Program-made: the position numbers and the translations under genes
The notes under the pieces: model-generated
Database searches by the model: none
Told to the model about the DNA's origin: nothing
The model's input: only the letters and a program-made list of their open reading frames with translations
Assembly (NCBI GenBank): GCA_017506865.1
Contig: JAFCMP010000401.1
Span: 620,001-684,000, forward strand
Source: Tribonema minus
Lineage: Eukaryota; Sar; Xanthophyceae; Tribonematales; Tribonemataceae
Direction: 5' to 3'
DNA: 64,000 nt
In this document: positions 7,648 through 56,800 of the stretch, one piece after another
How positions within the stretch are numbered: position 1 is the stretch's first letter
Layout of the letters: every line of letters starts with the position of its first letter

Positions 7648-10600
7648 TTGCACTGCCATCTGCACCTGCTGCTCGCGACAGCGCCTGTCACCGCGGCAGC
7701 AGCGGCACCTGCAGTCCCGCCAGCGGGGCCGCTGGCCATCTCCACGGGGAGCTCCATTGTCAAGCACAAGCCCCGGCGCAGCTTCTACATGCGGACGCTA
7801 CCCAGCAACTGCACGGCGTTCGCGTCGCCGCAGGGGAGGGTCCTGTTCCGGGAGGCGCTGTCGGAGGGCACCATGGAGACGTACTTTCGGCTCGCGGACC
7901 ACTTCCTGACGCAGGACGACCCGGCGTTCTGCGGCCTGAGCACGCTCACCATGTGAGTGCGGAGCGCGCCTGATGGTGCATGGTCGACGCGCAATGAAAG
8001 CGCGGCGGTGTTCGCGGCACGCCTGACTCAAAGACAGGTCGATGGAACGCTTTGGAGGAGATGGTGCTCGCGCCCGTCACAGTCACGACATGCTGAAGTT
8101 GCGCTTAGGATTGGCAAAAATTCAGTACCTCGCTTGGCACGGGCCAATCCTTGCCGTTGAGCGCCGCGTGAGCCTCGTGCGCATGATCTTACACATGCCA
8201 CCACGCCCACAGTCGCGGGTCAAAGTTACCATGCAAGCGCTGTTTTTGGCAGAGAGGCTGCATGTACATGTGTTGCGGCAGAAACTGGGGTGCGGTGTCA
8301 TGTGCAATGGAGGGGCTTAGCGAGAGTGGCTGCATGCAGGTATGAATGCGTGTTGAATACCCCGCACAAGCCATACTTGCACAAGCCATACTCAGAGTGC
8401 TGGAGCGCATACGGCACAAGCGATTCGCATTGTAACAGATATGCAACCTCAAAGGATCCCTGCTCTTAGTGTTTCCAAGATGCTGACTCAGACAAACTCA
8501 TTCTCCCACATCTACAGGCGGTGCCATGGGTCCCAGGGAAGTTTGCCCCTGTCTTGTGTGAACATTGTCGCAGCTAACCAAACCTTACAGATCCCCCCTG
8601 AGCATGTTTCTAACCCCAACCCTGACCCTAGACCTAATCCTCAGCAGGACAACCTTTGCACGCCTTGACATCCTCTGGACGGGTACAGCCGCACTGCCGT
8701 TATTTTCGACATAAAACGTCATTGGGGGGCATCGTACCACGGTGCACACCACGCGCGAAACCCCATACCCTCTGCACACACGAAACAATCGCCTGCCCTG
8801 CTTGCATCGCGCCTGCGATCAAAGCGCCCTCCTGCCACGGGCAGCGTCCGTGGTGTCGTGCAACCGCTCGTCTGGCTGACGCCTCATATGGCCACATTCG
8901 TGGCGCCTGTGATGACCAAATTCATGAAGCGCCGGGGCATGTGATGAGTGCATTAACGCCCCTTCTCAAGATCTGTTGAAGATCGATAACCCCATGCAAG
9001 TCGCACGCCCCTAATCACAGCAAGACCGTGCGCCCTCACCACCGCAACCGTGAGCACTTGAAGCGCAGAGACACAACACACTGCTGAGCGTCGCTGCACT
9101 TGTCTCTGCCGCCTGCTCTGCCGCGGCCGCTGCTCGGCAGGGCTCTCAACGCGCTGTCGGTGGACCCCGGGCGCGTGTGGAAGGGGTGAGTGACTCACAA
9201 GTGACTCGCAATGAACTGAGCGCTGCCGCCTTCCTTCATGCGTTCGTTAGTGCATGCATCTGCCCATTCATTCAATTGCAGCGAAGGCGCGAAGGGTGCA
9301 GGTTGGGGTGACCATTGCACATTCACAGCGCCGCAATTTACAACTGCAGTAGCGGCAGCCACTGGTCTCATCTGGTGTTGAGCAGCGCTCAATCAGTCGC
9401 AGCGCTTAACAGCAGCGTCCCTGCGTCCATACGCCAAAACCATCACTTTGCCGCTGGCCCGAGGCGCGCGCCGGCAGCCGGCGCTGCGCCGCGACCAGTG
9501 CTCAGCGGCCGCTAAAACGCGGCGTGCTCGTCCTGCTGGGCTCCGAGCTGTGGCACACCGCGCGTAGTATATACTCACATGCCTGCCGATCTGACGGCGA
9601 CTGCACACACTCGCGCACGCCGCGCGCGCGATCATGTCGGGTATAGGGCGATGTTTGAGGTTGGAGTCCCTCCCTGAACTCGCTGTGGTTGTTCACGTGC
9701 GATGGTCAGCGCCCGATCTGCGCTGGTTGCCTGCTGCTCACGCGTGACAGTCAGCGCACCGCTGCAGTGGCTGCTTGCTTCTCCCCATTGCCTGGATGAT
9801 CGGAAGGACCTCCGCGCTCGTGTCGCCCCCCTGAGAACGCCGGCTGCAGCGCGCGTCCGCACGTGGCACGTCACCATTGCACTTGGCAACATGCACGTGT
9901 CATGTGACTTGCCGCCACCGTCCACTACTTTGAAGTATGACATCTACCCGCACCAGGCAAAGGGGTCACGCAACAACCACTGCCGCCCGCCGTCGCCGTC
10001 GCCGTCGCTCGAGGCGCGTCACCTGTTGCACTTGCTGACGCGGTGTGGCGTGTGACGCGCCGCTACCAGTCGTTAATGCAACATCCACCTTGCCGCCCGC
10101 CGCCGCCGCCGCTCAAGGCGCGTCACCCGTTGGAATTGAGGACACGATACGGCGTGTGACGTGCCACTGGCATCGCTGACACGACGACTGCCTCACCACC
10201 TGCTGCCGCCGCCGCCGCCGCAGCGCGTGGCGCTGGTACCATGAGAGCCTGCTGGACTGCTGCGTGCCGCTGGAGAAAGTGCGCGAGAACGGCATCGTCA
10301 TCGGGCAGGTGCGTCACGAACGTGAGGCGTGTGACGTGCCCAGCCTGCCACACTTCAACTCGTAGATTAGGCTCAGGTTGAAGTTTATGGAAGGCATTAA
10401 CCGACGACGACGCCAACTCCGTGCTGGTGAGCGCCTGAGTCATGTGACGTGCGGAGAACGGCATGGTCATCGGGCACGTGCGCCGTGAAGCAGCAGCGCT
10501 CCACGCGCTGCGATGCTGTAGGATGTGAAATGTGGGGTACATGGGGGTAGGTCAGGCCCCAGTCTCACGTGATGATGTTTTCTAGTGGTGTTACAAGGGT

Positions 10601-13600
10601 TACATAGTATGCTTGTCAGGCCCCGGTCTCACATCTGCTGAACAGCTGCGTGCCGCTGGAAGAGATGCAGGAGAACGGCACCGCCGTCGGGCAAAGGCGG
10701 CTCAAAGCAGCGCTCTGCATGCTGCGGTGATGTTAGCTGGTAAGGTGGCCGGGGGTATGAACTGCAGCGTCGGCGATGCTTGACGTAGCACTGCGGCGAG
10801 TACGGTTCAACCGGATAGAGGGGGTATGTAGGGGGGGTATGCCGGGACCCCGGCCTGGTCGATCCCCAGTGTCGGCGATGCTCAATCGACAGGACGCGCG
10901 GGCGCGGCGTGCGTACGGTCAGCGACGCGTCCTCTCCTTCCTCCGTTCACCGTTGTCCGTTGGGGGGCGTAGCCAACGTGATGCCAGGCCAGCGTTCGCC
11001 CGCGGCTTGTGTGTTGTCGAAGTTGACACGAAGCGCACTGCGCTACCAGGACTCGTCACACCCCCATGTTGTCCGACCGGCGCACAGGTGCTGCTGGCTG
11101 CTTGGGGTCAGGTTTGGGGTTAGCGGTAGGGTTTTATGCTTTGCAGTATGTCGGCATGCCAACCGACCGCGCCATACCCTGCCTCCGGTATCCTACTGTA
11201 ACCCTAGCCCCAGAAAAGCGGACAGGCCACACCCTATTTGAAAATCGAACCCTGAATACCCATGACCCTCGCAACAGAGCGTGCACGAAGTGTGCAAGCC
11301 TTAGGCTTCCTTCCGCCTTCCACAAATTTTAGAACACAACCCTAAGCACGCTCTTGCAAGACAGCGCGCGCTGCACACCCTTCTTCCGGCGGACACATCC
11401 GCCGCTGCCATTCGCATTTGCCAAGCTGCCTGCCTGGCATGCTACTGCGAGGCCTGCGTGTGCGGGCTAGAATTAGGGTTAGGGTTAGGGTTAGGGTTAG
11501 CGCCTGCTGGCAGACGCCTCTCGGCAAGGCTCCATGCTTGTGCTTGCGCACGCGTTCATACCTTCCGCGTTGTGCAAAGGTGCAGGTGGAGGCACACTGG
11601 ACATGCCCCCCTGCGCAAGTTGTGCTGCGTTGTGATTGTGACATTCAGCAGTGTTTTCCCGCACAGTCGCGCCGATGCGCTCGCGTGCCTCGGCGCGCCG
11701 CAGCGGCGGGCACAGGCGCGGACAGCACGCTTGTGAGCGTAGGTGCATCTTCCAGGCATGTACGCAGAAGTTCACTTCAGTCCGCGCTGCAGGGTTGAGT
11801 GAAATACACGCTTGCGCATTCCACAGTGTACAGAGTTCAAGCACAACTGTACACACACTTGCTTGCGCGCTCACTCGCATCGCCTGCCCCCTGCCCCGTG
11901 CCGCCGCCGCCGCCGCCGCCGCCGCTGCCGCCTGCGCCAGTTCGCCTGCCTGGCGCGCTGCAACGGCGTTCGCGCCACCGTTCGGGGACCAAGGCAGATG
12001 ACACTAGAGAAAGCACGGGCGCTCGTCGTTGAAGTCTGCAGCCGGCCCGAGACCGACAGAGTTCTCATCGCGAGCTATCACAGGTCCGCTGAGCGTCATC
12101 GATATACGGCTTCAGCGCTCAGCATTTGCGCGTGCTACGGCAGCGCGGCGCGTAGTGCACTCATGTTGCGCTGTTGAAGTCAGCGGTGCATGGATTGTTG
12201 ACGCATCAGTGGTGCAAGGCATGAAAGGAGGGTTGATGCGGGCCGTCGCGACCGACGCAGCGGCAATGCTGCCTGCGCGTGCGGGGACGGTGGTGACCGC
12301 AGCGCCGCTAGAGTTCCGCGTGAGGAGTGCGTGCAGTCTGGGCCTGCCTTCGGCCGCACTTTTCTATGCAATGTGGTGCAAATGCCAGGTACTCCACATG
12401 GCAGGCGTGTGCCCGCCTGTAGCCGATTCGTACCCGGCAGTTGCACGAGATGTCATGCTGCGCTGTCGCTTATCCAGACCATCACGCCTGCATCAGCACA
12501 CACCGTTGCGCGCGTCTGCACGCCTCGTCCGTGACCCCTGCCGCCGCCGCCGCTGCTGCCGCCGCCGCTGCTGCTGCTGCGCACTGCTGCCCGTGCGCGC
12601 AGAGGGACGCTTGGCCAGACCGGCTCTGGGCACTTCAGCCCGCTCGGTGGCTACCACGCGGCGTCCGACTCAGTGCTCATACTGGATGTGGCGCGCTTTA
12701 AATGTGAGTGATCCACGACTCACGAGTGACTCGTGGGTGACTGCGTGAGTGAGTCGAAAGGGAATGTGACCCGCGCCATGGCGAGAGCACAGTTGAAGTT
12801 GTTGGGTGCCCCGCCTCCTTCTGTGTAAACACTGGCAGACTGCCTCTTGCAAAGCTCCGTCTCCATATGAAGCTCAGCCACTGGACGAGTGTTTGACGCG
12901 AACAAGTATTAGTACAGTCAGGGCGCCTTTGTTGCGTGCGTCGCAGGATCAATGGCATCGCTCCTTGCCGTTGCCTGCACGCCGCCGCCCCTGCCCCGCG
13001 TAAGTCTGCTGCACAGCATGCGCATCATTCATTGGCGTCATTCATTAGGGTTACGGTTACGGTTAGGGTTAGGGTGAGGCTAAACCCTACTCCTAACCCC
13101 AACCCCCATGCGGTGCGCAACGAGACGCGAGCAGGCTGCGCCCGTGCCTCGCGCTGCAGCGCTAACTGCGTGCTGGGCAGCATACCTACTCCCGCCAGCC
13201 ACAGGTGCCTCATCACTCATCATCACGCATTGCGCATGCTCCCGTGCGCAGGCCCGTCGCACTGGGTGCCGCTGCCGCTGCTGTAGGGTTAGGGTTAGGG
13301 TTCGGATTGGATCCCATACGCCAGCGATGCCTCGACGCTCAGCTTCATCACCCCTCACAAAGTGCTCTTCTGCGTTGAAGCACGCGTATTGATGCTGTGC
13401 GCTGACAACGTCTGCGTGCATGCAAATGCCCCCCCGCACGCTCGCAGACCCGTCACGTGACTGTGTGCCGCTGCCGCTGCTGTGGGAGCCCATGCACCAG
13501 CATACATGCCTACTCCCACCAGCCACCCGGTGCCTCATTCCTAATCATCACGCGCTGCACACGTTCCCGTGCACAGACCTCTCCCACTGGGTGCCGCTGC

Positions 13601-16600
13601 CGCTGCTGTAAGGTTAAGGTTAGGATTAGGGTTAGGGTTAGATCCCATACGCCAGCGACGCCTCACGCGCAACTTGATCACCCCTTGCACATGCTCTACC
13701 GCCTTGAATCACGTGCATTGACACTGCGCTCTGCAACTCCCGTGCGTGCCCCCCCCCCCCCCCCCCCCAATGCGCGCAGACCCCTCGCACTGGGTGCCAC
13801 TGCTGTGGCATCCCATACGTCAGCAATGCCTCGACGGCCAGCTTCATCACCCCCCACAAAGTGCTCTCCTGCGCTGAAGCACGCGCATTGATGCTGTGCC
13901 CTGACAACGTCTGCGTGCATGCAAACGCCCCCCCGCACGCTCGTGGACCCCTCACGTGACTGTGTGCCACTGTCGCTGCTGTGGGAGCCCATGCGCCAGC
14001 ATACATGCCTACCTCCACCAGCCACCCGGTGCCTCATTCCTAATCATCACGCATTGCACACATTTCCGTAAACACACCCCTCGCACTGGGTGCCGCTGCC
14101 GCTGCTGTAGGGTTAGGGTTAGGGTTCGGATTGGATCTCACACGCCAGCGACACCTCAACGCCCACCTTCATCACCCCACGCACATGCTCTCCCGCCTCG
14201 AAGCACGCGCGTTGACGCTGCGCTCTGCAACTCCCGCGTGCGCGCGCGCCTCCGCAGACTCCTCGCACTGGGTGCCGCTGCCGCTGCTGTGGGAGTCCAT
14301 GCACCAGCATACATGCCTACCCCCGCCAGCCTCATTCCTAGTCATCACGCATTGCACCCATTCTCAAATGCAGATCCCTCGCACTGGGTACCGCTGCCGC
14401 TGCTGTGGGAGTCCATGCACCAGCTGGACCCGGAGACGCAGGCGCCGCGCGGCTTTGTCCTGCTGCAGCGCTCGGAGCGCCCCGCCGTGGCAGGTCAGCT
14501 TGTGGGTGGTCATCGCCCCTCCCCCCCCCCCCCGCTGCCGGAGGGTGTTCAGCGTGTACAAGCGCGGGCACGGCGATGCGTTGTGCGCATGTACGCCTTC
14601 ACTAACCCATGTCGTCGCGTCGGCATCTTCGCGTGCAATACTAGACATTTCACTGGACTAATAGCATAGCATCATACCCCGACGCAGCAGGTAGGTGTGT
14701 GGGGTGGCCGCAGGCTACCCCGCCTGGGGGGGGTGTCGGATGCAGTGCCGGCGTCGTAATGCGCATTGCGTGTGTATGTATGCATTTATGCGGCGGTTTG
14801 GGTCACATCGTCGCTCGCGCAAGCACGGACACAATTCCACGTTACGTCTCCCGCATGCAAACGCGCGCCTGCGCCTGCAGCGCCTCGTGGTCTTCAGCGG
14901 GTTTGTCGGTTGCACTCGCATCGCGGACGTGTCTAGCTCCTGCGGAGCGCTGCCATTGCAAGACATGCGCCGCTTTCGACGTGGATGAGCATGTGCCACA
15001 TGGGGGTAGGGACAATGTATTCGTAGTGTGTGGAGCGTGAGCCCGCAGCCCCCCCTTCCCCCCTGCGCCCCTCACCCATTGTACGCTGTGCCGTCTGCAC
15101 AGCGTACGCTAGGTAACATGTGCACAGCGTGGCAGCGCTCGGAACTACTCGCGTGTACTGACGCACAGATGTAGCAGTAGGTGTGTGCCTCGATAGCGTG
15201 ACAGCCCTCAAACACTGCGCGCCACGGAGTGGGCCACAAGCGGCACTCGCCGCCTAACCCTGATTCTAAGCGACAACTCCCATGCGAGCGCACTGCGCGG
15301 ATGCACGTGCATACTTGCATAGGCACAGCGTACCAGCGGTCAGCCCTGCGCACCGCAGCCGTTGACTCATGCATCCGCGTTGCAGTCGCAGATGCGTTGG
15401 CAGCCGCGCGCCTCAACAGCGTGGCAGCGCTCAACCACTGCGCGCCATGGCATCGGCCACAGGCCCTTGCTGCCTAGGTAATTCTAACCCTAAGCGACAC
15501 CTCCGCCACAAGCCCACTGCGCGGATGCATGTACATACATAGGCACAGTGCGACAGCGCTCAACCTCGTGCGCGCCGCAGCGCACACAGACCAGCCCCCC
15601 CCCCCCCCCCCCTGCCGCGGCGACCGAAACGCCGCGCACGCACTGCACAGATATACACCAGCACAGCATCGCGCAGCAACAGCGTGCCGCGTCGCTCACA
15701 AAACACTGCGCGCCGTCGTGCAGGTCAGGGGCGCCTCGCCGCGGCGGCGACGGCGCGAGGCGAGCTCGCGGGGTGGCCGCTCGCCATGCAGTGGGCGGAC
15801 CGGCTGTCGCGGCCGGAGGGGGGAGAGGGGGGGGAGGGGGGGGGCTGGGGGGGGGAGGGAGGGGGGGGTGGCAGCGAGCAGCAGCGACCGAGCTCGTGGG
15901 AGGGCTTCGCGGAGGCGGCCATCGCGGCGCTGCCGAGGGAGGTCGCAGGTGACGACGCGCGGAAACGTTTGATGTCGCTGTGGCGTTGTGTGTGACATTC
16001 AGCAGGTGAAGCGGCGTGGAATATCACATTGTTTGTGGTCATGTTGGCGTTGTTTGTGACATTCGTTGAGTGCTGTAGTGGTTTGCCAGCCCCGCAGGGT
16101 GGTGACCGAGGGGGGAAGAGATAGTCACTGCTGCGGAGTCGTGCAGGGGAAGGGGGAGGAGGGAGGGGGGGGGGGGGGGGGCAGCAAGTGATTCAAGCTC
16201 GGCAGGGAATCGCCGAGCATGAGAATTTGAAATGGGAGGTGTCTGGTGAGGAGGCCATGCGGCGCACTCTCAAAAAGGGACTAGCCAAGCCGCATTGGCA
16301 GACTGCGAGTCCCTTGCGCATCAGCGCTTGTCCTATGTATACATAGTCAGAGGGTGACTCTCCTGAACCCCAAGCCCCCCCCCCTGCCCCCCTGACAGAC
16401 GCGCTCGCGGCGCTGGCGAACCGCTGCAACGCCGGCGAGTTTGTGGACGGCCGCCTCTGCAGCGAGGTCGCCAAGCACACGCTCTACCCGCACGTCGCCG
16501 CGCAGCTCGCGCGCCGCTGGCCGGACGTCGACGCCGTGCGCACCTCCTGCTGCGGCGGCGCCGCCGATGCCGCCGGCGGCAGCGGCGATGGTGATGGCGG

Positions 16601-17649
16601 CGCAGCGGCGCTCAATGACAGCGGGAAGGAGGAGGGGGAGGCGGCGCCGCTGATCGCGTGCGCGTCGGGCGCGTGCCAGTTCGCCGCGGCGCACGTCGCG
16701 ACCGTGCTGCTGCTCGGCTTCCTCAAGGCGAGTGAACGCCGCGGCGCGTGCACGTGGTGTGTGTATTGTGGTGGGTCGCGCCAGTAGTGACCGCCGCGCC
16801 GTGTGCGCACGTGTGTGTATTGCGAAGGTTTGGGCCAGCGGATGGGGGAGGGGCGGGGGGGGGGGGGGGCTGGCGTGGTGGCGGGCCACATTGCATCGCA
16901 AGCCCGCTGCCGACTGCTGATAGGCATGCGCGCGGTTGCGCTTGGACTGCTTCATTGGCTGGGGAGCAGGGCCAGGCGTAGCTTTGGGGGGGAGAGTAGA
17001 GTACAGGGTTTGACGCACGATCATACTGGTGGCAACAGCGCTCAGCTCAGGCAGTGCGCGAACGCTGCTCTGGGCAGTCGCCGTCGTGGCTGAGCGCTGC
17101 TGCAGGAGCAGTCGGGCGCGCACAACTGCTGCGCTGCAGCCTCCGCCGCCGCTGTCGCCGAGGCTGTAAGCAGGGAGGCGGACATGCCCGTGCCGAGCAG
17201 CGCTGCCACATCACCTCCATTGCAGGAGTCATCATACAAATCAACTACTTCGTGTGTGCAGCACCGGCGACCGCCTGACTTGCGCGCAGCCCCCAGGGCC
17301 CTTTGCGCCCCACGTTGACGGAGACGTTCAGTAGCTACTCGGCGCGTTAAAAAGCTGATTTCTGCCCCGCGTGCGTGCGTGCGCCCCTCGCGCAGGTCGC
17401 GATGGACGAAGCGGCAGCTGAGCCTCTGCCACCGCCACGGCAGCAGCAGCAGCAGGGGGACACCCCGCGCACCGCCCCCCCCCCCCCTCGCGCTGGTCCG
17501 CCATGGCCGGCGTCTGGGAGGGCTCCCTGCCCGCGTGGTCGAGCCTGCTGCAGGATGAGGTCGCGACGATCGGCGAGATGATCGCGGGGGCGCGCGCCAT
17601 CTCCTACCTGGCCAACGACGCCGGCGCGACGCCTCCCGCCAGCGTCTGA
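7648..17649 (+). CDS. Phytochelatin synthase (glutathione gamma-glutamylcysteinyltransferase), nine exons
   Basis: It makes phytochelatins from glutathione for heavy-metal binding. Exons (phases agree): 7648-7952, 9141-9185, 10224-10308, 11941-12083, 12603-12703, 14374-14493, 15724-15948, 16399-16727, 17396-17649; about 535 residues (plant enzymes about 500). The papain-like catalytic domain reads [79 protein letters not shown]. The triad is Cys95, His203, Asp221, with spacings 108 and 18 (106 and 18 in Arabidopsis PCS1). The last three exons ([24 protein letters not shown]) fit the weakly conserved C-terminal domain less surely. Oddities are a GC donor after 16727 and a 13-C run near 17475-17487 that needs one more C (or two fewer) to stay in frame. 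The start is the first ATG in the exon; an earlier exon is possible. Confidence 0.9.
10440..10695 (+). repeat. Echoes of phytochelatin synthase exon 3 end in the following intron
   Basis: Near 10452-10485 the end of exon 3 (gagaacggcatcgtcatcgg) recurs with few changes, followed by a gtgcg donor. Near 10641-10695 a longer degenerate copy covers [16 protein letters not shown]. Both lie downstream of the true exon (10224-10308). Confidence 0.75.
11472..11500 (+). repeat. Interstitial telomere-like tract (TTAGGG, about 4-5 units)
   Basis: It is a direct run of TTAGGG units inside phytochelatin synthase intron 3. Similar shorter or degenerate tracts lie near 13048-13078, 13286-13302, 13612-13640, 14108-14128, 25436-25458, 30579-30598, 31100-31136, 34117-34142, 35697-35785 and 37487-37590, nearly all intronic. 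Confidence 0.85.
13246..14330 (+). repeat. Array of seven echoes of phytochelatin synthase exon 6 start
   Basis: The exon 6 acceptor region and its first ~30-50 bases (cactgggtgccgctgccgct, often with tgggagtccatgcaccag) recur near 13260, 13455, 13584, 13788, 13950, 14083 and 14265, before the true exon at 14374. Spacing is 114-204 bp. Several copies have an AG just upstream, TTAGGG-like tracts follow copies 1, 3 and 6, and long C runs occur between units. Confidence 0.88.
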
Positions 17650-17759
17650 TGCAGCGCGCCGTCGCTCGCGCCTCTTTGCGCCGCGTACAGGTCTATTGTC
17701 ACGCGCTGCGATCGTCGCTGCGCGCGCGGGGAGTGAAGGCCGCAGTGCGGGCCCCTCCT

Positions 17760-17890
17760 GGAGCTGCGAGATGGTCGCGGGGGCGCGCGCCATCTCGTAT
17801 CTGGCCAACGACGCCGGCGCGACGCCGCCCGCCAGTGCCTGACGCAGCGCGCCGTCGCTCGCGCCTCTTTGCGCCGTGTTCAAATATAAG
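17760..17890 (+). repeat. Echo of phytochelatin synthase last exon beyond its stop codon
   Basis: The end of the coding sequence ([20 protein letters not shown], stop, and the bases to about 17700) is repeated about 190 bp downstream as [20 protein letters not shown], stop and the same trailing sequence. The copy is near-identical, so it is recent. Confidence 0.85.
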
Positions 17891-18896
17891 TTTCAAGCGC
17901 TGCCGTCGCTACGCGCGCGGGGGGAATAAGCGCTGCAGCGCAAGCGCGCCTTGCGAAGCGGGGCGCTGTGGCAGGCGTCACTGAATGGAACGGATAGAAA
18001 TGTTGCTTCGCGCCTGCGGTTTGCTGGCGTGGTCTGCCGCGTCCTTTCATGCACTGTTGCAGTCACTGACCAGTTGCTGCACCATCATGTGTGTAGCTTC
18101 GCCCGTATGTGTGCGAAGGGGGGCCGCTGCTCATTGTGCAAAATGCTGGCAGAGGAGGGAATGCGCAGTTCAACTTGAAGTTTCAAGATCACAATGTTTG
18201 AACGCAGACTCGCCAAGTACTGGCACTGCACAAGTATTGATCATCTGGCACTGCTGTGGCTGCCCCTTTTTTCGCACGCTGCCAAATCAGCCAGCACATC
18301 AAAGTTATGATCCAACGCAAGAGGAGCGGAAGAAATCGCGCGGCCTCAGCACGCAGCAGCGGTAACTGCAGCAGAGCATCAGCAGGAACGTCACATGCAG
18401 CTGACATGAAATCAACCACGTTCAAGCACCATGAGTGCATCGAGCAGCACAACAATCAGGCATCCGAGAATCCATCTGGCCAAACCGAGAGTAAATGTGC
18501 TTGTATTGCTTTTTCAACCTTGGAACACCAGACCACCGAGGCTATCCTGCCATGCGTACATGCGCGTGTACATGCCGAACCGACCGCACACCACAAGGCG
18601 CCTATGCCAGTGAAAAACAACCCTTGCAGATGACCACCGACACGGTAAACGGAACCCACACAGGAAACCAAAATTTTGTGCGCACAACAGGTCTGCTGCT
18701 GCGCAGCGGAGCTGCTGCTGCTGCTGCGACCAGTGCCTGCTGCTGCGGCTGCAGCAGCTCACGTGTGCTTGCTGAAGCCGGGAATACCCTACAGTAGGTA
18801 CGGGGTGAGAGGCCACAGCCTACGAATCACACATTTGCCGAGAGATCTGATTGTGCTACCGAAACGCGGTCTGCCCCTGGACGAGAGCAAAGGCAA
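17891..18896. other. Gene-free stretch
   Basis: I see no coding exon with a family match and no RNA gene. A CAACTTGAAG-type motif is present near 18171. The stretch separates the ends of two converging genes. Confidence 0.5.
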
Positions 18897-19229: not shown

Positions 19230-20105
19230 GTTGAGTTCAGATTGACCCTGAACTGGATGGATATGCAGTCAGCGTTCACTTGACGCTACGGTCATGTGGG
19301 AGAAGCCAGCAGAGCGCGGCTTTTTGATTTGACAGCTGTTGTACGTTGTGTGAGCTACAGAACGAGCCATCACAGCATCAAAGCGAAGGATGGTTAAGAA
19401 AACGTAAAATGCAGGCCTCTATCACCTTGCTAGCTTTGTTGGCAGGAGTATGCCTGCGAGCGTGCGCCTCCAAAGCTCTCGGTCGAATTACCAGAGACAA
19501 ATCGGCAGATCGTTTTTGAGAGCTGCAAGGAGCTCGCTTTCAAGAGTTGCAGCAAGGCGCTGCTTCTGTCTGATATTTTAGTCCTTGCAAGCCGGCTTCC
19601 GCATCCTCACCTTGCGTCTCGTCTCTCGTCTCCCAGCTATAAGCTATCGGCAGATTCGGAGCTCTTTGAAAAGGGGTGACGCTCCTGTTTGAAGTTCGAT
19701 CAGTGTTGACATGGAACAACACAAGAGCCCACAACCACGTGCGGCTTGCCAACAACATCATGTTGTACATGTATCAACTATGCAACAGCCGCAACGGCAG
19801 CACTATTTTTGACTTTGCGGTCAGCAAGGAAAGTCTTCGCCTGATGGCAGCTTAAAGGTCACTCGAGGGTGATAGAGGTCGGGGGTGGGGGGTCCAATGA
19901 GTGTGGGTCCATAGTGAGCACCGGAGCGCTGCTGTGCGTGCGGTGGCACATTATTCAATTGGGGTGACGAGCTGCATTGTGTCCTCCTGCTGCTGCTGCC
20001 TTTTAGTTTGTGGCGCTGTCGCACATTGCGCACATGCAGACGCTACGAACAGCTGGCGGAACATTCTGACACGGAGTGCACCTTGTCTGCCTGTGACTGC
20101 TCCAG
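19230..20105. other. Gene-free stretch
   Basis: Base composition is more balanced here. I see no supported exon, RNA gene or repeat. It may hold 5' sequence of the small minus-strand gene and of the plus-strand candidate at 20106. Confidence 0.4.
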
Positions 20106-20460
20106 TACGGTTCATCGATGCCCGCAGATTTCACACAGAAGAAATCCAGATGGTCAATGTCAAGCCTGCTGCCAGAGTCTACACGTGCTTGTTCATGGGC
20201 GCTGTGCTACCTATAGCGCCAGCAACTGATCTGAGAGTGCAGCAAGGGTTTGTGATCAGCACCAATGCTCAGCGCCGCAGAAGTGGTTAGCCAGTCCTGT
20301 GACAAATGGGCAGCATCCAAGGCAGTGCCTCGCATTGTGGTGCATGTTGCAGTGTTGCCACCACAATGCTGGGATAATTGACCGATTCGCCTTCACCAGG
20401 CTGATGGTTCATGTTGCCATGAAGGTTGGCAAGACCCCTACAATGACAGATTGCGGACTA
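20106..20460 (+). CDS. Two coding-like segments of an unrecognised gene
   Basis: Segment 20106-20285 follows a tccag acceptor and reads RFIDARRFHTEEIQMVNV, then ARVYTCLFMGAVLPIAP. Segment 20353-20460 follows tgttgcag, reads NAGIIDRFAFTRLMVHVAMK and ends at a strong gtaagt donor, 36 codons in phase. Both look like conserved protein and have ordinary codon use. I could not make the phases of the two segments agree, and I do not recognise a family, so the exon borders are provisional. Confidence 0.3.
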
Positions 20461-20576
20461 GTAAGTACCCACTGACGCACGGTGATTCGTCATAGCGGCG
20501 CGGTATGAGCACTAGAGAGCAGCACCAGCATGCACGCACAAACTTTAGAACCCATTGCATGCCAGGAGTTCTGCAG

Positions 20577-21022
20577 CACAACCTCCGGTTTGTCTTGTGA
20601 TGTCCGGGGACACGGACCGCATTGGCGCGCAGGTACCCCCGTACACACTACACTGTGAAATGTTCAACACGAGGTCTGGGCACGATGCCGTTGCACCTGT
20701 TGCAGCTGCAGCGCCTGGAGCAGCTGTGTCGCCTGCGTCCGCAACAGCAGGCAGCGCAGCCGTTCTGACTGCGAAAGCGGGAACGGTGGCGGCAGCGGCA
20801 GCGACCAATGCAGCTGCGCTGCCTGCTGTCCCAGCGCCAGCAGCAGCGCCAGCAGCTGCCGCGGCAGGCGGCGCCGCTGCTCCAGCCCCTGCAGCGACGG
20901 CAGCCGTCGGTTCAGGGGTACATCGATCGTGTAAGAGTGACATTGTTTTTGTCGTGATCAATCGTGAGCAGCAAGACGCGCTCGGCCATGAGCACATCAT
21001 GGGTTTGATGCAAGTGATGTAA
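20577..21022 (+). CDS. Ala/Pro-rich reading frame, possible last exon of the 20.1 kb candidate
   Basis: The frame reads PPVCLVMSGDTDRIGAQVPP, then an Ala/Pro-rich low-complexity stretch, then DIVFVVINREQQDALGHEH and a stop at 21022. An acceptor-like ctgcag precedes it. The stop lies four bases from the end of the opposite-strand LRR gene, which would make a tail-to-tail pair. The low-complexity middle is open in several frames, so this is weak. Confidence 0.25.
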
Positions 21023-21025
21023 GAC

Positions 21026-23468: not shown

Positions 23469-23667
23469 GCTTGGCGACCTGTGTCGGCATACACTACACC
23501 TACACAAACACACACACCACAATCGGTTACACCAGGCGAAACCGCAAAGGGTGCCTACCTCTGTGAGGTAGGTCACTGCGAGGTGATTTGAAACTGCAAA
23601 ATTGCTGTGATGCTTGCCTTGCCAACGGAGGCACGCCTACTATGCTCCGCCAGCTAGCCCAGCCCAG
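23469..23667. promoter_or_regulatory. Bidirectional promoter region
   Basis: About 200 bases separate the proposed start codons of the LRR gene (minus) and the large membrane protein (plus). No clear TATA element is visible. It holds a short CA-rich tract. Function is inferred from gene orientation. Confidence 0.45.
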
Positions 23668-26600: not shown

Positions 26601-27400
26601 GACGGCGTACTCGCTGTACGAGTACGCCGGCAGCGGCATACCGTACGCGACGCCCGCGAGCGAGCTCGTCGCGGACCTGGTGATGTTCAGCGCGTGGTTC
26701 GCTGCGATCGTCGTGCTCGTGCGGCGCACGCCCGCGCACTTCGTGCCGCCGATCCTCAACCTCCACACGGTCATCCAGGACTCGCAGGTGAGAGCATGAG
26801 CGCAGGGGCTGCTTGCAGCTATTTATCCTTCAGGAGTGGGGCTCCCTTGTGCATGTTTTGTGCGTGATTCGCGCTCACCCGCGAGAGCGCGCGGCATATA
26901 GTGCTCACCGCGCTAGGCCCCACATGCGGTCGTCCAGGACTCGCAGGCGAGAACGCAGGGGGGCGGGGGTGGGGTGCTTGCGGCTATCCTCTTCTGGCGC
27001 TCATTTGCAGCGATTCTCTGTGTGTGCTTTGCTCGCCCCCCCCCCCGACGTGTGTGCGCGGCGCTCGCCGCGCTGAGCCGTGCGGCCAGAACGCCTCGCC
27101 CCCCTGATCCCCCCGCTTGTCCCCCCCCTCCCCCATGGGCGCGCAGGCGGTGCTCAACGCGCTGGGCGTCGCGCCCGACGGCGCGCTGTCCGACGCGGAG
27201 CGCCGCTGCCTCGCCGGCGGCGCCCTCGCGCGCGACCAGGGCGCGCTCGCGCGCGTCCTGCGCCAGACGTCCGAGGCCTCGCTCCTCGCGCCGCCGCCGC
27301 CGCCAGCGTCGCCGGGCGCTGCTGCTGCTGCCAGCGGCGTACCGGCCATGCCCGCCGCTATGTCGGCCCCCAACCTGCCCCCCGTGATCTGCGAGCCGCT

Positions 27401-27444
<44 letters not shown>

Positions 27445-36789: not shown

Positions 36790-36828
<39 letters not shown>

Positions 36829-39800: not shown

Positions 39801-40605
39801 GTCCATGTCCTTCACGGCGCCGCAGGGCGCGGTGCTCGCGTGCGGCGCGCTCGCCGTCGCGCTGTGCGTCTTCAGCGTCGCCTCGCGCCACCTCAGCAAG
39901 CTCTCGCACGACATGGTCGAGCACGGCCTCGAGTTCGGCACGCTCGGCCTGTGGTACATCGCGCTGCTCATCCTGTGGAGGTGAGCTGCTGCTTGCTGCG
40001 CGCCGCCGCAGCGCTCCGCACTTTGTGTATGGCCACTTGGACTTGGACATGGCAGTTGTGTGGCTGTGGCGCAAGTACTCGAGTTACTTTTGGCATCACT
40101 GGAGTGCGTGCTGCGCTGCGTGCGTGCACGCCGCGCGCGCTGCCGCAGCGCTGCGTGCTCTCTTGTGCGCGCGGCGACTTGACTTCAACGTTGCGCTTGC
40201 GCGGCCGCGGCGCAAGCTTGTGAGTTGATTGACATCGCTGGAGAGTGTGCTGCGCTGCGTTCTTTGGTGCGCTCAGCGCACGGTGCGTGTGGCGCTGCTC
40301 CGTAGTGCTACCCAGAGCTCTGCGCATGACCGCAGCGCTCAACACTTGAACAAGACCCCCAAGCATCCTTCATCATGTCCATGTCTGCATCGTCACGCGC
40401 TCAGGGTGACGGTTAGAGTCAGGACTCTGCGCTGCTCAACAAACCACCACCCAATTCTGCACCTCCGCACATTGACGCCCGATGCTGCACCGGCGCGCAC
40501 CATGCAGGCGGCGCGCGTGGTACGACACGGAGACCGGCATGCACGAGGGCCTGGAGGGATGGGATTCGTCCCCCACACTGAGGGACGATGCGTGGGCGCC
40601 GCCGC

Positions 40606-40636
<31 letters not shown>

Positions 40637-42961: not shown

Positions 42962-45900
42962 CTACTTGGGCCGCGGCAGCAGCGCCGCCTCGACGCGGCG
43001 CAGCGGCGCCTCCACCGCCAGGTACAGCGGCACGCTCGCGGCGAACGTCCCCAGCGCGAAGCCCATGTACGTAACGGCGAATTCGGCCTCGCCGAAGCGC
43101 GTCGGGCCCGCGGCCGCGCGGTAGAACCAGGTTATCACCGTGGGGTGCACGAGGTACGCGCAAAATGTGAGCTTGGAGAGGGGCGCCCACGCGCGGTGGG
43201 CGAGCAGCGCCTGCACGGCGCCGCCGCGGTTCGCAAAGCACTGGCGGGGGGGGCAATGTGCGGTGCAACGTCAGGTGTGCAGAGGGTGTACATTCTTGAG
43301 TAGTGATGGATGTGTTGAACATGTATCAATGGTGAGCAGCGGCGCCCACGCGCGGTGGGCGAGGAGCGCCTGCACGGCGCCGCCGCGGTCCGCAAAGCAC
43401 TGTGGCGAGGGGTGGGGGGGGGCGGAAAGGTGGGGGGCGTGGGGTGGGCAATGTCAGGCGTGCACGACGCGGTGTGTGTACATCTCAAGGCGTCAGCAGT
43501 GGTCAGAGGGCGCCCTTGCACAGCGCCGCCGCCGCCGCAGTCCGCAAAAAACGTTTCTTGGAGGGGGGGGGGGGGGCATTGAGGTTACACGGCGAGGCAT
43601 GCACCGCGCATGACTGTCAGAACTGCCTAAAGAGCGCGTGCAGGCCTGTAGTGCAGTGACTACAAATGCATGCGTGTACTTGTATACGTGCAATGGCTCT
43701 ATGTACACGCCGCGTATAATAGAAATAAATCCAGAGGTCGTATACTCCGAAGTATATATGTATAATGCGTGATCACATGGACACAACAAGCACAGAGGGC
43801 AGGGTGAGAGCAGGGCACAAGCCCACTGGCAGGCCACAGCACGATCGACCCCAGACACAAGCTATGCCATGTCTGTTTGGGAGGACAGATCACTCAGGTA
43901 TAGGCTCGGGTTGGGATTAGGGTTATGAAGTCCCCTGCATGGCGTTGGCGCTGCAAATCCCCAGAAAACGCCTGGGGCCTCAGGAAGGCAGGACGTCAAG
44001 ACGCAGTGGGAAGAGACTGTCTTGCGCCCCTGACCCTAACCCTACTTACCCCTAGTCCCAGCCCCTTTAACCCTGATTTCAACTGTAGGGCACAGTGCCC
44101 CCCCGTGTATGCAGGTGTAGCGGCGGCAGCGGCAGCACGTCTAACCGAGCAGCCGCCTCGCGCATGGCTAACAGCGGCGACTGGATACTGCAGTGGTGGA
44201 GGCCGCCTCGTCTGTGCAAGCGCACCCCAACCCTCACCTTGCCATAGCCGCAGGTGCCTTGGGCTTTGAGTTAGGGTCAGGCTAACCCTAAGTTGGCTCT
44301 GGCATTGCTGGAAGGTCTCAGCAACAGCCAGCTTTTTTTGCATGTCCAGGCGCTTGATTGACACTCTTCAGGAACTGCCGACTTGAATGCTTCGAAGTAT
44401 GCAGACCTAACCCTAATCCTAACACCGACCGTCACATGCCTGCGAGCGCACCTAACTCTAGCGCTACCCCTAATCCCAGCCTCCACCCTAAATGCAACAG
44501 CGACGCACCTGGAAGCACAGCGCGGAGAGGCCGAGCAACCACGTGAGTATGCACCGCGGCATTGACGGAAGAAACACCTAAATAGCGGGTACAACGCCTT
44601 GAGAACAGACAGCCTGTGGAGCAGCGAATGCAAATGTATGTGCATCGTTGTATTTGTGCGATATCAGCGTGCAAGCATCGCGTACATTCCCAGCCCCAAC
44701 ACTAAGCGTGACAGCGACGCACCTGGAAGCACAGCGCGGTGAGGCCGAGGGACCACGCGAGCCGCGCCAGCGCCAGGTAGGCTGCGTTCTCGCCCCTGGA
44801 TATTGGCGACGGGACGTCCTGGTAGGCCCAATACGTGCCATACACCTGCGGCAAACGACAGCGAGAGATGCAGCGGACGGCAACCCGCTTTTGAGTGTGC
44901 ACCGCACTACTGAGTAAACACCAGTACAATCAGTACACCTCATTGCATCATTAGCAACGCAGGCGGAGACGCCCTTTGAAAACAAGCAACATGATGCCTT
45001 TGGGCACCCAGCCCCCCCCCCAACCAGCCCCTCACTGCAGTGCACCACACCCTGTGTGCTTAGAAGCTCACATCAGCTTTAACTGCAGCAGCGCCGCTCA
45101 CCGTGCTCCCCAGCAGCGCCGCCCACGCGACCGTCACGGCGGCGTTCGCCGCCGCCGCGCGCTGCGCCGCCGGCCGCCGCGCCGCCGCCGCCGTCGCCAC
45201 CGCAGCGGCGCGCCGCCACCCGAGCGCCGCGAGCACGCCCGCCGCGTACGGCACGACGCGGCTCCACGGCCGAATGTAGTAGTCGGGCCAGTAGCTGTAG
45301 CCGCCGCTCTGGGGGGCGCCGGGCGCGGGGAGTCCGCCGTCGAAGACCGTGAAGCGCACGCCCTGCGCGAGGCCGAGCCAGAGCGCGAAGGCGCAACTCG
45401 CGGCGACGGCGAGCGCGCAGAGCGCCGCCACGGCGGCGGTGGCGGCGGCGCGGCCGCGGAGGGGCTGGCCGAGCAGCAGCAGCGGCAGGAACGCGAGCGC
45501 GAACTGGAAGTCGTTGGCGAGGTACCAGCCGACAGGGAAGCAGGGGAGGCCCGTGCGCCAGGGCACGAGGTTGCTGATGTAGAGCGGGTTCGTCCACCTG
45601 TTGGGGGAGGAGGGGGGGCAAGGGGGGGGGGGAGGGGGTGCGCGCGGGGTGAGGCAGTTGGCGACGCGTTCACCTTTCAGTCAGAGCTGGAAATGATGAC
45701 TGTTGTCATTTGAAGTGAGTTCCTTTGACAGGTGCACGTGTGCCTCAGATGGCCGCACTCGCCGGCGCGCGAGACCGCCCGTGTGGCTGTCGCAGCAAGT
45801 AGCAAAATCATGGCAGTGATGAGACCTTGGCTACGAGCGTTGGACGGGGGCATTTCAAGCGCTTCTCACTCGTGATAAGCGGATGCCAGCAGCACATGGA

Positions 45901-48900
45901 GCTCATCTCATCCCCGCATGCGTATCCGCTGTGCAGCTCGCTGTACCGTTCAATGTACACGGCATATCATCAATATGAAAACCATGCCATCATGATGTTG
46001 GGCATCTTATGACTACTTCAAGCACGCGTCATCGGCGGCGCAGCAGCCCCACGGCACAGGTCCTTGATACATATCCCATGGCTACGTTTAGGACACATGA
46101 TGCAACGAACACCTGATCTCATCACACGTCGAAGCACACATGTACGCACTAGTGGTGGCATCTCGCCAGTATTCTGAGCACGTGGGCGTCGTCGGCGCCA
46201 AAATACCACAGCCCAGACAACGACTGACGCGTGCCACGCGGCTACACTTCTGAAATCACTGTGCAGCGCAAACAAGATCTCTTCACGCACGCGTGTACGT
46301 CGTGAGGTGCATCTCGGCAGTATTTTGAGCACGTGGGCGTCGTCGGCGCCAAAATACCGCAGTCCAGACGACTGACGCGCGCCACGCGGCTACACTTCTG
46401 AGACCACTGCTCGCCGTGCACAGACCCCCTCGTACGCGTGCACACGACAAGAATACGTCAGGCTATTACGCCGCTCGCGCCAAACGATAGATCGAAGTGC
46501 ATCTCACCAGTACTTGAGCCACATGTGCCACACGGCCACGCTTTCTAGGTCATCGTTCAGCGTGAACACGACCTCTTCACGCACACGTGCACGTCATGAG
46601 GTGCATCTGACCAGTATGTACTTGGAGCACGCGGCATCGTCGGCGCCAAAGATCGTGAAGTCCCATTACAGTGGAAGCAGTGACTAGGGGGAAGGGGACC
46701 CCCCTTTGAAATAAAGTCAATGTTCACCACTGCTGCTGATGGTGTTCAGTAGCTCAAATGAATAAGCTAAATGAGCCCTTTGAAATGCACCTAGCCTCGA
46801 GACTCGCAATTTCGAACTTCACAAGTTATAGGCGAAACAGTGGCTTAGTCTGTGGTTGAAGCTACTAGGGTTAGAACTAGGGCTTGGCCTAACTCGGCAC
46901 CAACGAGTTTGCGGTCTCTCAAGGCCTCCACCAATGAACGCCTGACACGTAGGGCTTTTCAGTGGACCGATCAGTTTCAGCGAAAACAGCGGTAAACATT
47001 GATTGCTTTTCAATAGAAGGCTGCTGCTGAAAGCTTGAAAAGAGCGCTTGCTGCTGTCACCTAAGCGGCCGTTGTCTTGCTACCCAGCCCATACAGCCGT
47101 GTTGAGAGACTCGTCAGCACGTGCCGAGCAATTGCCACATGCAGCATGGCCTTGCGTGTGTGTTCCTGCTGCCAGCAGCTACAGCTGCAGCAGAGCGCGG
47201 TCACCAGTGCTGCTCACCCTGCTATGTACACATGACGAGCAGTATGGTGCTGGAACATGCTCACATGCATGTGTACTTCCTCACAAGCCTCATTTTCAGT
47301 CGAGGTTTCGTCATAAAGGAGGTGAAAGCCGGTCGCGATCGCCAAAAATCGACTAAACGGCGTTCGTAAGCGGTTTTATGTGACTTTTTGCGACTTAAGT
47401 CGGCTAAAGTCGGCTCAAGTCGGACAAACTGTCAACTATCCTGCTCCTCAACGGGGATTCTTGTCCTTGTGGTTTGAGATTGCAACTCCCTCCCCATAAA
47501 AAGTTATCCCATATCAACCCCCATCCCCCTAGTCACTGCTTCCACTGTAGCCCGACCGACTGGCACGTGCCACGTAGCTACACTTTTGAGATCACGGCGC
47601 AGCGCGAACAAGATCTCACAACACGCGCGCGTGAGCATCGTGAGGTAAATCTCACCAGTACTTAAGCACGCGGCGTGGTCAGCACCAAAGTTGCACTGCC
47701 CGGACGACTGACGCGCGCCACGCGGCTGCACTTTTGAGATCACCGCTCAGCGTGCGCAGAAGAAGAACCTGTCCGCGTGCGTGCGCACACACATGGTTGA
47801 AAACGCATCAGGGTTTACTCCGCTCACGCCAGAATACAATAACTTCAAAGTACATGAAGCAAATCTCACCAGTACTTGGAGCAGGCAGCGTCGTCGGCGC
47901 CGAAGTCCCACAGCGGGCCCGCGTCGAGCAGCGGCAGCACCTGCCAGTACAGCAGCACCGCCGCCATGAATGTCGGCGTGATGCGCAGCCAGCGGTGCAG
48001 GTACAGGGCGGGCAGCCAGCGCAGCGCGGCACCGCGCGACAGCGGCGCCGCGGCGCTCAGCTTGGAGAGCGTCACGTGCGTCAGTAGGAACCCTGCGCAA
48101 CGTCAAGTTGAAGTGTGGTGCGGAGTCAGTGTTGAAGTGTGCTGGAGAGTAGGCGCGCAAGTGGTGAAGCGCTCAGTTGAAGTGAGAATGAGAGTAGGCG
48201 CACAAGTGGTGAAGCGCTCAGCTCGGAGAGCGTCACGTGCGTCAGCAGGAACCCTGCGCAAACATCAAGTTGAAGTACGGTGCGCCGGCCCGGCAAAGTT
48301 AAAGGAGTGTGGTGGAGAGTAGGCGCGCAAGCGGTGAAGCGCTCAGCTTGGAGAGCGTTACGTGCGTCAGCAAGGAACCCTGCGCACCATCAAGTTGAGT
48401 ATGGTAAAGTTGAAGTATGGTGCAGAGTAGAGATGAAGTGTGATTGAGAGGCGGCGTGCAAGTGGTGCAGTGCGGCGTTTTTGTCGCCTCGTCAAGTTTG
48501 AGGAGCTCAGCGGGGGAGCGCTGCGTCGCACGCAGCAGGGGTGCGATGGCTGACCGCAGCACAGGCGAGACGGGCGCAGCAGGCGCGCTGAGCGCTGCAG
48601 ACACAGCAGCGCTCAACTGGCAGACGGCGCGCGACCACACGACCGCCAACCACACGACCACCAAGGACAGGCGGCAAGATAAACATCAACAAGCACTCGC
48701 GACAGGACGCACCGCTGATATAGAAGAACGTGTCGACGGACAGGAACGCCGAGGTGATTGCCTGAGCGCTGAGGCGCGCCAGCACGCCGCGCCCGCCGCG
48801 CGGCACGAGCTCCAGCAGGTTGCTGTAGCCGCCCGCGAGCAGGCAGAAGATGAGCGTGTGGCCGAGGATCACCCAGAGGATGCTCAGCGCGCGCAGCCCG

Positions 48901-53869: not shown

Positions 53870-56800
53870 ATGGTGAGTGCAGTATTGCAATACTTAAAAA
53901 TTCGAAAATGCGAGCATGTTTTCTTTCACCAGCGTCATGCGCATCACGTGTACTGACGATCACTCCACTTCTGCATGTGATTGTAATGTGCCTCATCCAC
54001 AGGCACCCGTGGCCATAGCTGCGAGAGCTGCTGTAGGCATTGCCTGCCTGGGCTGCTACGCCCTCTCCTGGACGGCCACAGTAGCGCGTCCATCTCAGCT
54101 GCTTGCCACCGCCAGCAGCAGAGTTTGGGGCCGTGGCAAGGTTAACATGAGCTCGGCGCAGGCCACCGACACCGCGGCGGCAGCAGCGAGGGAGCAGCAG
54201 CAAAGAGGGCATTTCCTGGGCTTCGGTGACCCGAACCACAAGCCCTCCATCCTGCAGCAGATCACGGAGAAGCGGTACAGGGATGTCGAGGAGGCGCGTC
54301 ACCTCGTCAGCGAGGCCACCCTCCTCTCCCAGATCGCGTCCTTCGACGCGCAGCACGGCGCCCCCCTGGACCTGTATGAGCGCATAGCGCAGACGGAGCC
54401 GCAGATGGCCATCGCCGCGGAGTTCAAGCGCGCATCGCCCAGCAAGGGCGACATTGCGCCGGGCATGGTGGCGGCGGAGCAGGGACTGCTGTACGCGTCG
54501 GTCGGGGCGGCAGTGCTCAGCGTGCTGACGGAGCCGTTCTGGTTCAAGGGGACCGTGCAGGACATGCGCGAGGTGCGGGAGGCGACGCAGGCGCAGGCGG
54601 AGGCGAGCAGGGCGTCGAGGTGAGCGCCGAGCACGGTGGCAGCTGTTGAAGCAGGGCGCGCTTTAGGGGGGCTCAACAACGAGCGCTGGGGGGGGGGGGC
54701 ACGACGTGTGGCTGCACTGCTGACTTGTAGGCAGTACTGTGTCGCGCGTGTGCACGTGCTGAGGCCTCTCGCATCAAGGTGCCACAGGGGGCCTGCCAGA
54801 GCAGGGCAAGGGGAGCCTGATGCTTGGCGTGATGCAAGGGGGCTGGGCAGCGGCTCAACTGCCTTGCGCGCACCCTCTGGCAAGCGGTGCCAGCAACCGC
54901 CAGCGTGGCGGTGAATGACTGCAAGCAAGCATCTGAGACGTCGTGGCACTGCTGCCGTTGGATCGTCGACGTCCGCGCCTGCACACAGGCAGCAGCTGGG
55001 CATGTTGTCGCTGAGCGTTGAAGTCACTCATCGTAACTGTCGGTCGTCGTAACCGCTGTGGCGCAACACAAGGCACTCACGCTCAATCATGGCCCTACTG
55101 GCCGCGCCCTGCACGGCCGCACCACGCATGATCTGACAGCAATTGCACTATGCCTCGCTCCTGTTATGCCTGATGAGCCGCTCTGCTGCCAGCTGTACAG
55201 CTGCGCCGCTCAACAGAATGTCAGCAAACCTCCGGTGGTTCTCTGAGCAGGAGTCACTGACTGTCATGTTACGCACTCTGCTCTGAGCCGTGCTGCCGCC
55301 AGGCCTGCGGTGCTGCGCAAGGACTTTGTGGTGGACGAGTACATGGTACTGGAGGCGCGCGCGAACGGCGCGGACACGGTGCTGCTGATCGTCGCCATCC
55401 TTGAGGTGCGTGCCCGCAGCCCGCGCAGCTGTCACGTAGGCGCACGCAGCGCTGTCAGAGGCGCAGCAAATATTCATACTGTTAATGCCCACATGGGGCC
55501 CGTGTTCCCCTCTGTACTCATGTCCGTGTATTCATGTACTCACCTGTGCTCATGGAATATACCATCTTTAAAGTACAAATGTCAGGTGCATGTGACCGTT
55601 GCGGTGGTGCCACGGGCAGAGGGCGTTGTCTGTGCCGGCTGCACGGCAGAGTCATGTTGGCGCGGCAGCAGCGTGTGCTTCGCTGTGCCTCGCATTTGCA
55701 GCTGCGGACTTGTTCGGAAGAGCATGCCCTCAGCCCAGTAAACACGGTAGTGCGCTCTCATTTGTCGGAGAGAGTGCCCCCTGACTGCGTGCCCCGTGCT
55801 GCTGCAGTTAATGTGGTCCTCTTTGGTGGCGATTGCGCGCGGCTGCTCACTCATCTGGAGCGCAGTTCCTGAATAATCTGAAGGATTGCTTCACGAGTGC
55901 GTACACCGACCTCATCACGGGTTGACCATGTGCCATTCGGGCAGCGCCGACAGCATTGCGTTGCCTGCCGTCTTGGTACGAACATACTTCAACTGTGAAG
56001 TACTCACTCACAAGTGAAGTGCGTCATAGCGCGTGTACTACGATCGCCCCATCACGCTGCCCCCCCCTTGACCCGCTGTGCAGCGCCGACAGCACCGCGC
56101 CGCCCGCGCACGCGCAGCAACTACTTCACACTTGAAGTGCCTCACACACGCAGCGCACGCGCGCCCTCAACACGACCTCAACTGCGCAGGTGGACCAGCT
56201 CAAGCGCCTCATGGCGTGCTGCCGCGCGCACGGCATCGAGCCGCTCGTCGAGGTGCACACGGACGCTGAGATGGAGGTTGCGCTCGACGCGGGCGCGCGC
56301 GTGATCGGCGTCAACTCGCGCAACCTCCACACCTTCAAGCTCGACATGGAGGCGACGCAGCGCGTATCGCGCATCGCCGCGGCGCGCGGCATCAGGTGAC
56401 TCTCCTCGTCACACCAACTTCAACTCTGTGCTGGCATGAAGTTGAAGTTGCATTGGGCGTCACGCGCATCGCCGCGGCGCGCGGCATCATGTGAGCCTTG
56501 CCTCGTCTATGTGTGGCACGTCATGTGCCATTGAGCACCTTCAACTATGTGCTGGCTTGAAGTTGAAGTCGCATCGTGGGTGTAGCGCGCGCATTGGCGC
56601 TGCGCGCCGCATTAGGTGACGCTCGCCTCGTCCACAAAGTGTGCCCCTCGAAAAACTTCAACTCTGTGCTGTCAGAAAGTTGAAGTTGGGTCATGGGTGT
56701 CGCGCGTGCGTCGACGTGGCGCAGCGCCAGGTGACCGTATGGGGCTTGTGCCTTGTGGTGTGCAGTGGACTAGGAACGAAGATCAAACTTCAACATCACG

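Follow-up and report, generated by a model that had tools for sequence, protein, structure and literature searches.

The 64,000-nucleotide stretch examined in this study (hereafter the window) corresponds to positions 620001-684000 of contig C401 in the 158-Mb, 554-contig assembly of the yellow-green alga Tribonema minus. Among the genes located in the window are those for a phytochelatin synthase, a membrane protein, an acyltransferase encoded on the minus strand (42966-48092), and an IGPS-PRAI protein. An initial annotation, prepared from the nucleotide sequence alone, proposed that introns of these four genes carry one to seven tandem copies of an adjacent exon edge (here called echoes), with donor-side echoes located downstream of exons and acceptor-side echoes located upstream. 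Echoes were indeed found in all four genes and on the predicted sides, array copy number ranges from 1 to 7, and the estimate of about 15 arrays agrees with the 15 echo-bearing edges among 67 tested in the window. When additional stretches of the genome are included, we find that introns of T. minus carry degenerate tandem copies of the adjoining exon edge and its splice site at approximately one in five tested edges.

Exons were predicted ab initio by using a purpose-written, strict gene finder, which took the place of a self-trained one that had produced hundreds of tiny exons. The 78 exons that it called come from the window, from 13 other stretches of the genome (L017-L029), from six stretches centred on genes (L030-L035), which were picked from domain hits before any search for echoes there, and from one paralogue locus. 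The random stretches all represent positions 20001-30000 of their contigs, and therefore contig ends are over-represented. Exons with a coding score below 10 and edges with fewer than 150 bases of flank were left out.

Several comparisons bear on the quality of these gene models. The closest database match of the phytochelatin synthase in the window is the T. minus protein JKP88DRAFT_279734 (public gene model P0001), whose common exons match by eye, as do doubtful additional pieces of the public model. No T. minus genome paper turned up among the matches listed in the open-access literature. The exon edges of the membrane-protein gene (24872-40723) are consistent with a brown-algal homologue. 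In an ABCF gene with full-length relatives that are ~60% identical, the usual LDEPTNHLD motif is restored across an echo-rich intron when inspected by eye. Searches of Pfam yielded matches above or near the cut-off for the IGPS and PRAI pieces, a weak match for the acyltransferase (21 bits versus a cut-off of 31), and no match for three other pieces.

To establish how often exon edges are echoed, the terminal 50 exonic bases at each edge were searched for in the flank of that edge, over at most 1.5 kb and only up to the next predicted exon. With a score of at least 22, echoes were detected in the edge's own flank for 30 of 137 edges (15 of 67 in the window and 15 of 70 elsewhere). In control searches at this score, 0 of 136 edges had a match in the flank at the opposite end of the exon, and 2 of 98 pieces from the middle of exons scored a hit. 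Under a looser criterion, which demands a score higher than any obtained in 60 random draws of intron sequence, the corresponding values are 42 of 137 for own flanks, 2 of 136 for opposite flanks and 11 of 98 for mid-exon pieces, indicating that exon cores yield some background under these conditions. Both kinds of edges are affected (17 of 69 donor edges and 13 of 68 acceptor edges at a score of at least 22). The frequency of echoes is uneven among genes, ranging from 0 of 15 edges in stretch L020 to 3 of 3 in L032, and of the 13 groups tested, defined by sequence and strand, 8 contain echoes.

The tandem arrays are anchored on exon-intron junctions. Genic spans contain 45 tandem arrays, one of which is wholly exonic. 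Among the other 44, 29 straddle a junction and cover at least 20 bases of exon. Arrays placed at random would be expected to yield 8.8 +/- 2.6, 13.7 or 17.3 such overlaps, depending on the exon coverage allowed, and the maxima reached in 2000 runs each were 19, 23 and 28. The initial annotation had named junction overlap no greater than chance as the outcome that would speak against its proposal, and within the sample examined here, as distinct from the whole genome, chance is insufficient to explain the overlap. When exons were cut out and only the sequences of 58 introns were searched, 18 of 28 arrays still lay within 30 bases of a junction, compared with 3.7 expected (11 of 19 versus 2.1 in the window; 7 of 9 versus 1.5 outside it). 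Because anchoring persists with exons removed, conservation of the exon copy is not its explanation. With two satellite-like loci (L026 and L028) excluded, 40 arrays are present in 77.2 kb of genic non-exonic DNA, compared with 14 in 105.5 kb outside genes.

The coordinates of the echo-bearing features in the window are collected in Table 1. Some additional arrays in the same region are composed only of intron sequence (for example, 15097-15581 and 39998-40298).

Table 1. Echo arrays and a related tandem duplication in the window (numbers are window positions).
Feature	Span	Strand	Details
Phytochelatin synthase exon 10224-10308 with donor-side array	10224-10748	+	donor 10308; echo ends 10477, 10694
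Phytochelatin synthase exon 14374-14493 with seven acceptor-side echoes	13181-14493	+	junctions 13251, 13450, 13576, 13779, 13946, 14075, 14257
193-bp tandem duplication of open-frame end, stop codon and downstream sequence	17568-17980	+	frame 17422-17646, coding-like composition
Membrane-protein exon 24872-25397 with donor-side echo	24872-25888	+	echo end 25558
Membrane-protein exon 29994-30164 with acceptor-side echoes	29444-30164	+	29618, 29818; weak 29256 just outside
Membrane-protein exon 30871-31044 with donor-side echo	30871-31545	+	echo end 31165
Membrane-protein exon 33344-33526 with donor-side echoes	33344-33885	+	echo ends 33647, 33746, 33842
Membrane-protein exon 36888-37122 with donor-side echoes	36888-37444	+	echo ends 37278, 37419
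Membrane-protein exon 37638-37847 with donor-side echoes	37638-38271	+	echo ends 37981, 38123, 38265
Membrane-protein exon 39721-39980 with acceptor-side echoes	39172-39980	+	39206, 39505
Acyltransferase exon 42966-43240 with echoes at both edges	42732-43577	-	donor-side 42867, 42772; acceptor-side 43399, 43544
Acyltransferase exon 44723-44845 with donor-side echo	44474-44845	-	44508
Acyltransferase exon 47870-48092 with five donor-side echoes	46001-48092	-	47655, 46615, 46317, 46166, 46010
Acyltransferase exon 47870-48092, other edge, with acceptor-side echoes	47870-48473	-	48253, 48379
IGPS exon 56190-56395 with donor-side echoes	56190-56735	+	donor 56395; echoes 56490, 56615; further degenerate copy to ~56731 by eye

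By eye, the array preceding the phytochelatin synthase exon that begins at 14374 is formed by two subunit types arranged in higher-order repeats. The exonic parts of these subunits match and their intronic parts differ, again by eye, as expected from unequal exchange through the exon edge. Public model P0001 terminates in the first acceptor-side echo of this array (13252-13282, plus strand), where it closes with 13 residues and then TAG, and the model lacks the true exon at 14374-14493. The end of P0001 is thus an apparent annotation error caused by the echo array. Further downstream, the open frame whose end is duplicated (Table 1) is probably the last exon of this same gene, and it is absent from the calls of the strict gene finder.

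Echo units have a period of 95-215 bp (mean 152) in 30 arrays, made up of roughly 50 exonic and 100 intronic bases. Many alignments extend well into the intron, and others end within ~15 bases of the junction. Copy statistics were established with the 67 of 74 copies that reach to within 3 bases of the junction. The exonic parts of these copies have an identity of 0.90 to the exon, with individual copies 74-100% identical. The initial annotation noted that copies decay with distance in some arrays, and this holds as a tendency (Spearman -0.35, p = 0.004) with exceptions, in that the copy nearest to the exon is the more similar one in 13 arrays and the farthest copy is in 7.

The pattern of differences indicates how these copies evolve. 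Exon-echo differences by codon position number 70, 56 and 145 of ~903 each, which points to a flat distribution on the echo side (free drift) combined with silent change on the exon side. Exonic identity is greater between echo and exon (0.883) than between echoes (0.815), as is expected for copies that radiate from a slowly changing master exon. Within the same copies, exon-derived parts have an identity of 0.815 compared with 0.518 for intron-derived parts, and unrelated introns have a value of 0.298. A gapped comparison of the intronic parts was dropped as uninformative, since unrelated introns align at 0.79 identity by that procedure.

The number of units differs between related genes. A DNA search with an ABC exon revealed that a short exonic stretch is matched again nearby in several paralogues. 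In four ABC paralogues, which were selected for such double matches, one and the same junction has 2, 3, 4 and 2 echoes, and exon identities among the four range from 0.78 to 0.96. In addition, the transcript-derived protein P0127 of a near relative (EukProt source, Trinity name), which is identical in 306 of 311 residues, begins within the ABCF intron. Its leader aligns to the sequence that precedes the last echo in T. minus with 34 residues fewer, suggesting that T. minus has approximately one 103-bp unit at this place that the relative lacks. No near-identical second copy (allele) was listed for any of the three loci searched.

The echo arrays also bear on the length of introns. Introns with echoes are longer than those without (median 1090 versus 630 bp; 18 versus 40 introns, p = 0.0015), with the caveat that a longer intron offers more room for echo detection. 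Arrays that abut junctions make up 12.4% of intron bases. Thus, the initial annotation overstated the case when it described introns as filled with copies and raised duplication as possibly the main way in which they grow, although a link with longer introns is seen. Its suggestion that introns might be born in this manner fares worse. Duplication of an AGGT segment should leave a repeat of the upstream exon's end just ahead of the acceptor and a repeat of the downstream exon's start just behind the donor, but 0 of 58 introns showed this layout or either half of it.

A number of other features were encountered near these arrays or in the same sequences. A complete match to 5S ribosomal RNA (103 bits) lies at 32295-32413 (plus strand) in an intron of the membrane-protein gene, between predicted exons 30871-31044 and 33344-33526. 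A ~640-bp segment is present in three copies that are ~72% identical (946-1570, 2973-3619 and 5071-5706), upstream of the echo arrays. The palindromic motif TTGAAGTT/AACTTCAA (for example, 56415-56455) is ~20-fold more abundant than expected, with 33 versus 1.4 occurrences in introns and 25 versus 1.4 in gene-free DNA. A wider family of this motif occurs near 9 of 30 echo edges, compared with 10 of the remaining 107 (p = 0.007, in one out of three tests run). Telomere-like TTAGGG hexamers number 61 in 61 kb of introns compared with 8.9 expected from a first-order model (for example, 11473-11500, 13045-13079 and 35693-35784), 27 in 56 kb of gene-free DNA compared with 10.6 expected, and 0 in 24 kb of exons. 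It is possible that the intronic hexamers are scars of break repair. Loci L037 and L038 have exon stretches that are 96% identical, and their first 194 intron bases score 51.5, similar to paralogue pairs that share echoes (41.5-48). The contrast between the two could reflect either fast intron turnover or gene conversion of the exon. Kinase matches with identical scores on separate contigs (G000:C144:145514, C223:530795 and C278:13472) point either to alleles that the assembly left uncollapsed or to recent duplicates in it.

From the arrays themselves, their anchoring on junctions, the drift-like decay of the copies and the unit numbers that differ between four related genes, we infer dynamics of duplication and exchange. 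We give an even chance to the explanation that the arrays are minisatellites of the 'mirage' type known from amphioxus, formed by tandem duplication and unequal exchange, with the selected exon edge serving as a lasting master copy. A short tandem duplication (~150 bp) would span an exon edge and be tolerated because one copy still splices correctly. Slippage or unequal exchange between copies would then add or remove units. Selection would hold the true exon edge unchanged and thereby make it the master copy, through which arrays might be extended and partly refreshed, and purely intronic arrays would lose their homology and die out. Units with a longer exonic part may be weeded out, since they would be taken for additional exons, which might explain why exonic reach is short. 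No function was detected for the copies, whose effect on intron length is modest, and neither a function nor intron birth is supported by the tests run.

Several observations weigh against this explanation. The strength of the junction preference is only partly accounted for by it. Exon-derived parts are kept beyond the gap, at most twofold, that drift and a frozen exon would produce. We can only guess that this excess comes from refreshment by exchange with the exon (gene conversion) or from faster indel turnover of introns. The exonic and intronic identities of individual echoes are correlated (rho 0.30, p = 0.013), the 7 arrays with a less similar nearest copy run counter to the 13 that follow the tendency, and one gene-model caveat is that the donor at 57408 appears wrong by eye. 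Moreover, the exonic reach of the nearest copies (23-101 bases, where the lower end represents the detection limit; mean 50.5, standard deviation 16.5) is shorter than the 80.5 bases of random units (Kolmogorov-Smirnov (KS) p = 2e-7), which hints at a directed process. Such a mutational process would be aimed at the edges between coding and non-coding DNA and would duplicate ~50 exonic and 100 intronic bases, triggered, for instance, by breakage or replication slippage at the step from a GC-rich exon to a poorer intron, or set by the scale of a nucleosome. Consistent with this possibility, exonic reach is independent of period (rho 0.16, p = 0.40), it remains short for the median copy (50.3, p = 1.5e-8), the unit sizes resemble those of amphioxus globin mirages, GC content (the fraction of guanine and cytosine) is 0.728 in exons and 0.596 in introns, and arrays are denser in genic non-exonic DNA than outside genes. 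An apparent stop-codon edge (17646/17647) is duplicated in the same manner as splice junctions. However, this case was spotted first and tested afterwards, and 0 of 11 other predicted gene ends are duplicated (scores at most 15.5). Likewise, the reach of the longest copy per array (64.8 on average, exceeding 100 in four arrays and peaking at 193) falls within the simulated random range (KS p = 0.017). Exonic reach is therefore short as a tendency that depends on the copy chosen, and a sharp cut-off is unsupported. Strand folding of the intronic flank is not evident as a driver, with fold z-scores alike (p = 0.72) even though one unit holds a strong hairpin (z -3.8), and poly-C/G tracts are not enriched at echo edges (p = 0.22). 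On balance, we consider a directed process a serious but somewhat unlikely candidate, and its extension to a general, overlooked route of intron lengthening, which would continuously supply introns with exon-derived units, independently of the splice signal itself, in both this alga and amphioxus, to be rather doubtful.

Other explanations appear to be less probable. If duplications fell at random, those at junctions might merely be the ones recognised because the conserved exon copy prolongs their detectability, as would be compatible with the drift-like decay of copies. The 18 arrays that abut junctions when exons are disregarded make this improbable. The initial annotation also proposed that echoes supply decoy or alternative splice sites. 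Candidate sites do exist, since GT or AG is kept in 53 of 67 copies, and a public phytochelatin synthase model even ends in an echo, but this retention (0.79) is only about the level expected by drift (0.81, identity squared), and thus no constraint on echo splice sites is seen among these copies. Distances from echo to true site leave remainders of 2, 1 and 0 in 28, 20 and 19 copies, and when an exon is extended to an echo site, the reading frame is preserved without a stop in only 3 of 67 cases. Functional echoes, whether as decoy or spare splice sites or as alternative exons, are accordingly very improbable. We give almost no credence to the Rogers model, in which introns are born when an exonic AGGT segment is duplicated in tandem, for despite the abundance of tandem duplication near splice sites in this genome, its layout is absent from the introns examined and many units contain intron sequence. 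An assembly artefact is just as hard to credit. Tandem repeats are prone to misassembly, but the copies are diverged from the exon and are not clones, they occur in the majority of the groups tested, and the independent, transcript-derived P0127 contains echo-like intron sequence.

With decaying self-copies at about one in five tested edges, the introns of T. minus hold a readable record of local duplication whose rate and placement are measurable. The arrays bear on how introns lengthen, and they explain the error in the public phytochelatin synthase model. Another route of intron sequence gain is provided by introners, which are one element present in many introns. Unlike introners, which were not searched for as such, echoes match their own exon edge and were absent from all 136 opposite flanks. 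In the intron gain reviewed in PMC3443670, genomic AGGT segments are duplicated in tandem, which creates a new intron out of an exon. Echoes similarly reflect local tandem duplication near splice signals. They differ in that the intron already exists and acquires repeats of its own boundary, and none of the 58 introns has the layout expected of intron birth. In human segmental duplications, variable internal tandem repeats at an exon-intron boundary may alter gene structure. According to that study (PMC2812944), these differ from the T. minus arrays in that their units average 30 bp, they belong to primate-specific paralogues, and half reside in coding sequence.

The closest counterparts are the 'mirages' of amphioxus, which are tandem repeats that span exon-intron boundaries in Adh3 and in the globin genes BflGb6 and BflGb9 (PMC3087553). 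That paper describes repeat units that measure 150-160 bp in BflGb6 and 157 bp in BflGb9, affect the 5' as well as the 3' boundaries of exons, and number 6 and 3 on two haplotypes. It also describes AG/GT in many but not all copies, concerted evolution, and reverse-transcription polymerase chain reaction results that suggested normal splicing. The accessible portion of a paper on amphioxus huntingtin (PMC2206037) holds nothing on mirages. The T. minus arrays fit the anatomical definition of mirages. Their units likewise span the exon-intron boundary, with the nearest copies covering 23-101 exonic bases, they likewise occur at both boundaries, and AG/GT is likewise retained in many but not all copies. 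To judge from the matches listed in our literature searches, few of which looked for mirages beyond amphioxus, what is new here is the lineage, the frequency and the test that demonstrates anchoring. In contrast to the handful of genes reported to carry mirages in amphioxus, echoes in T. minus are found at 30 of 137 tested edges, with their anchoring on junctions established by direct comparison with random placement.

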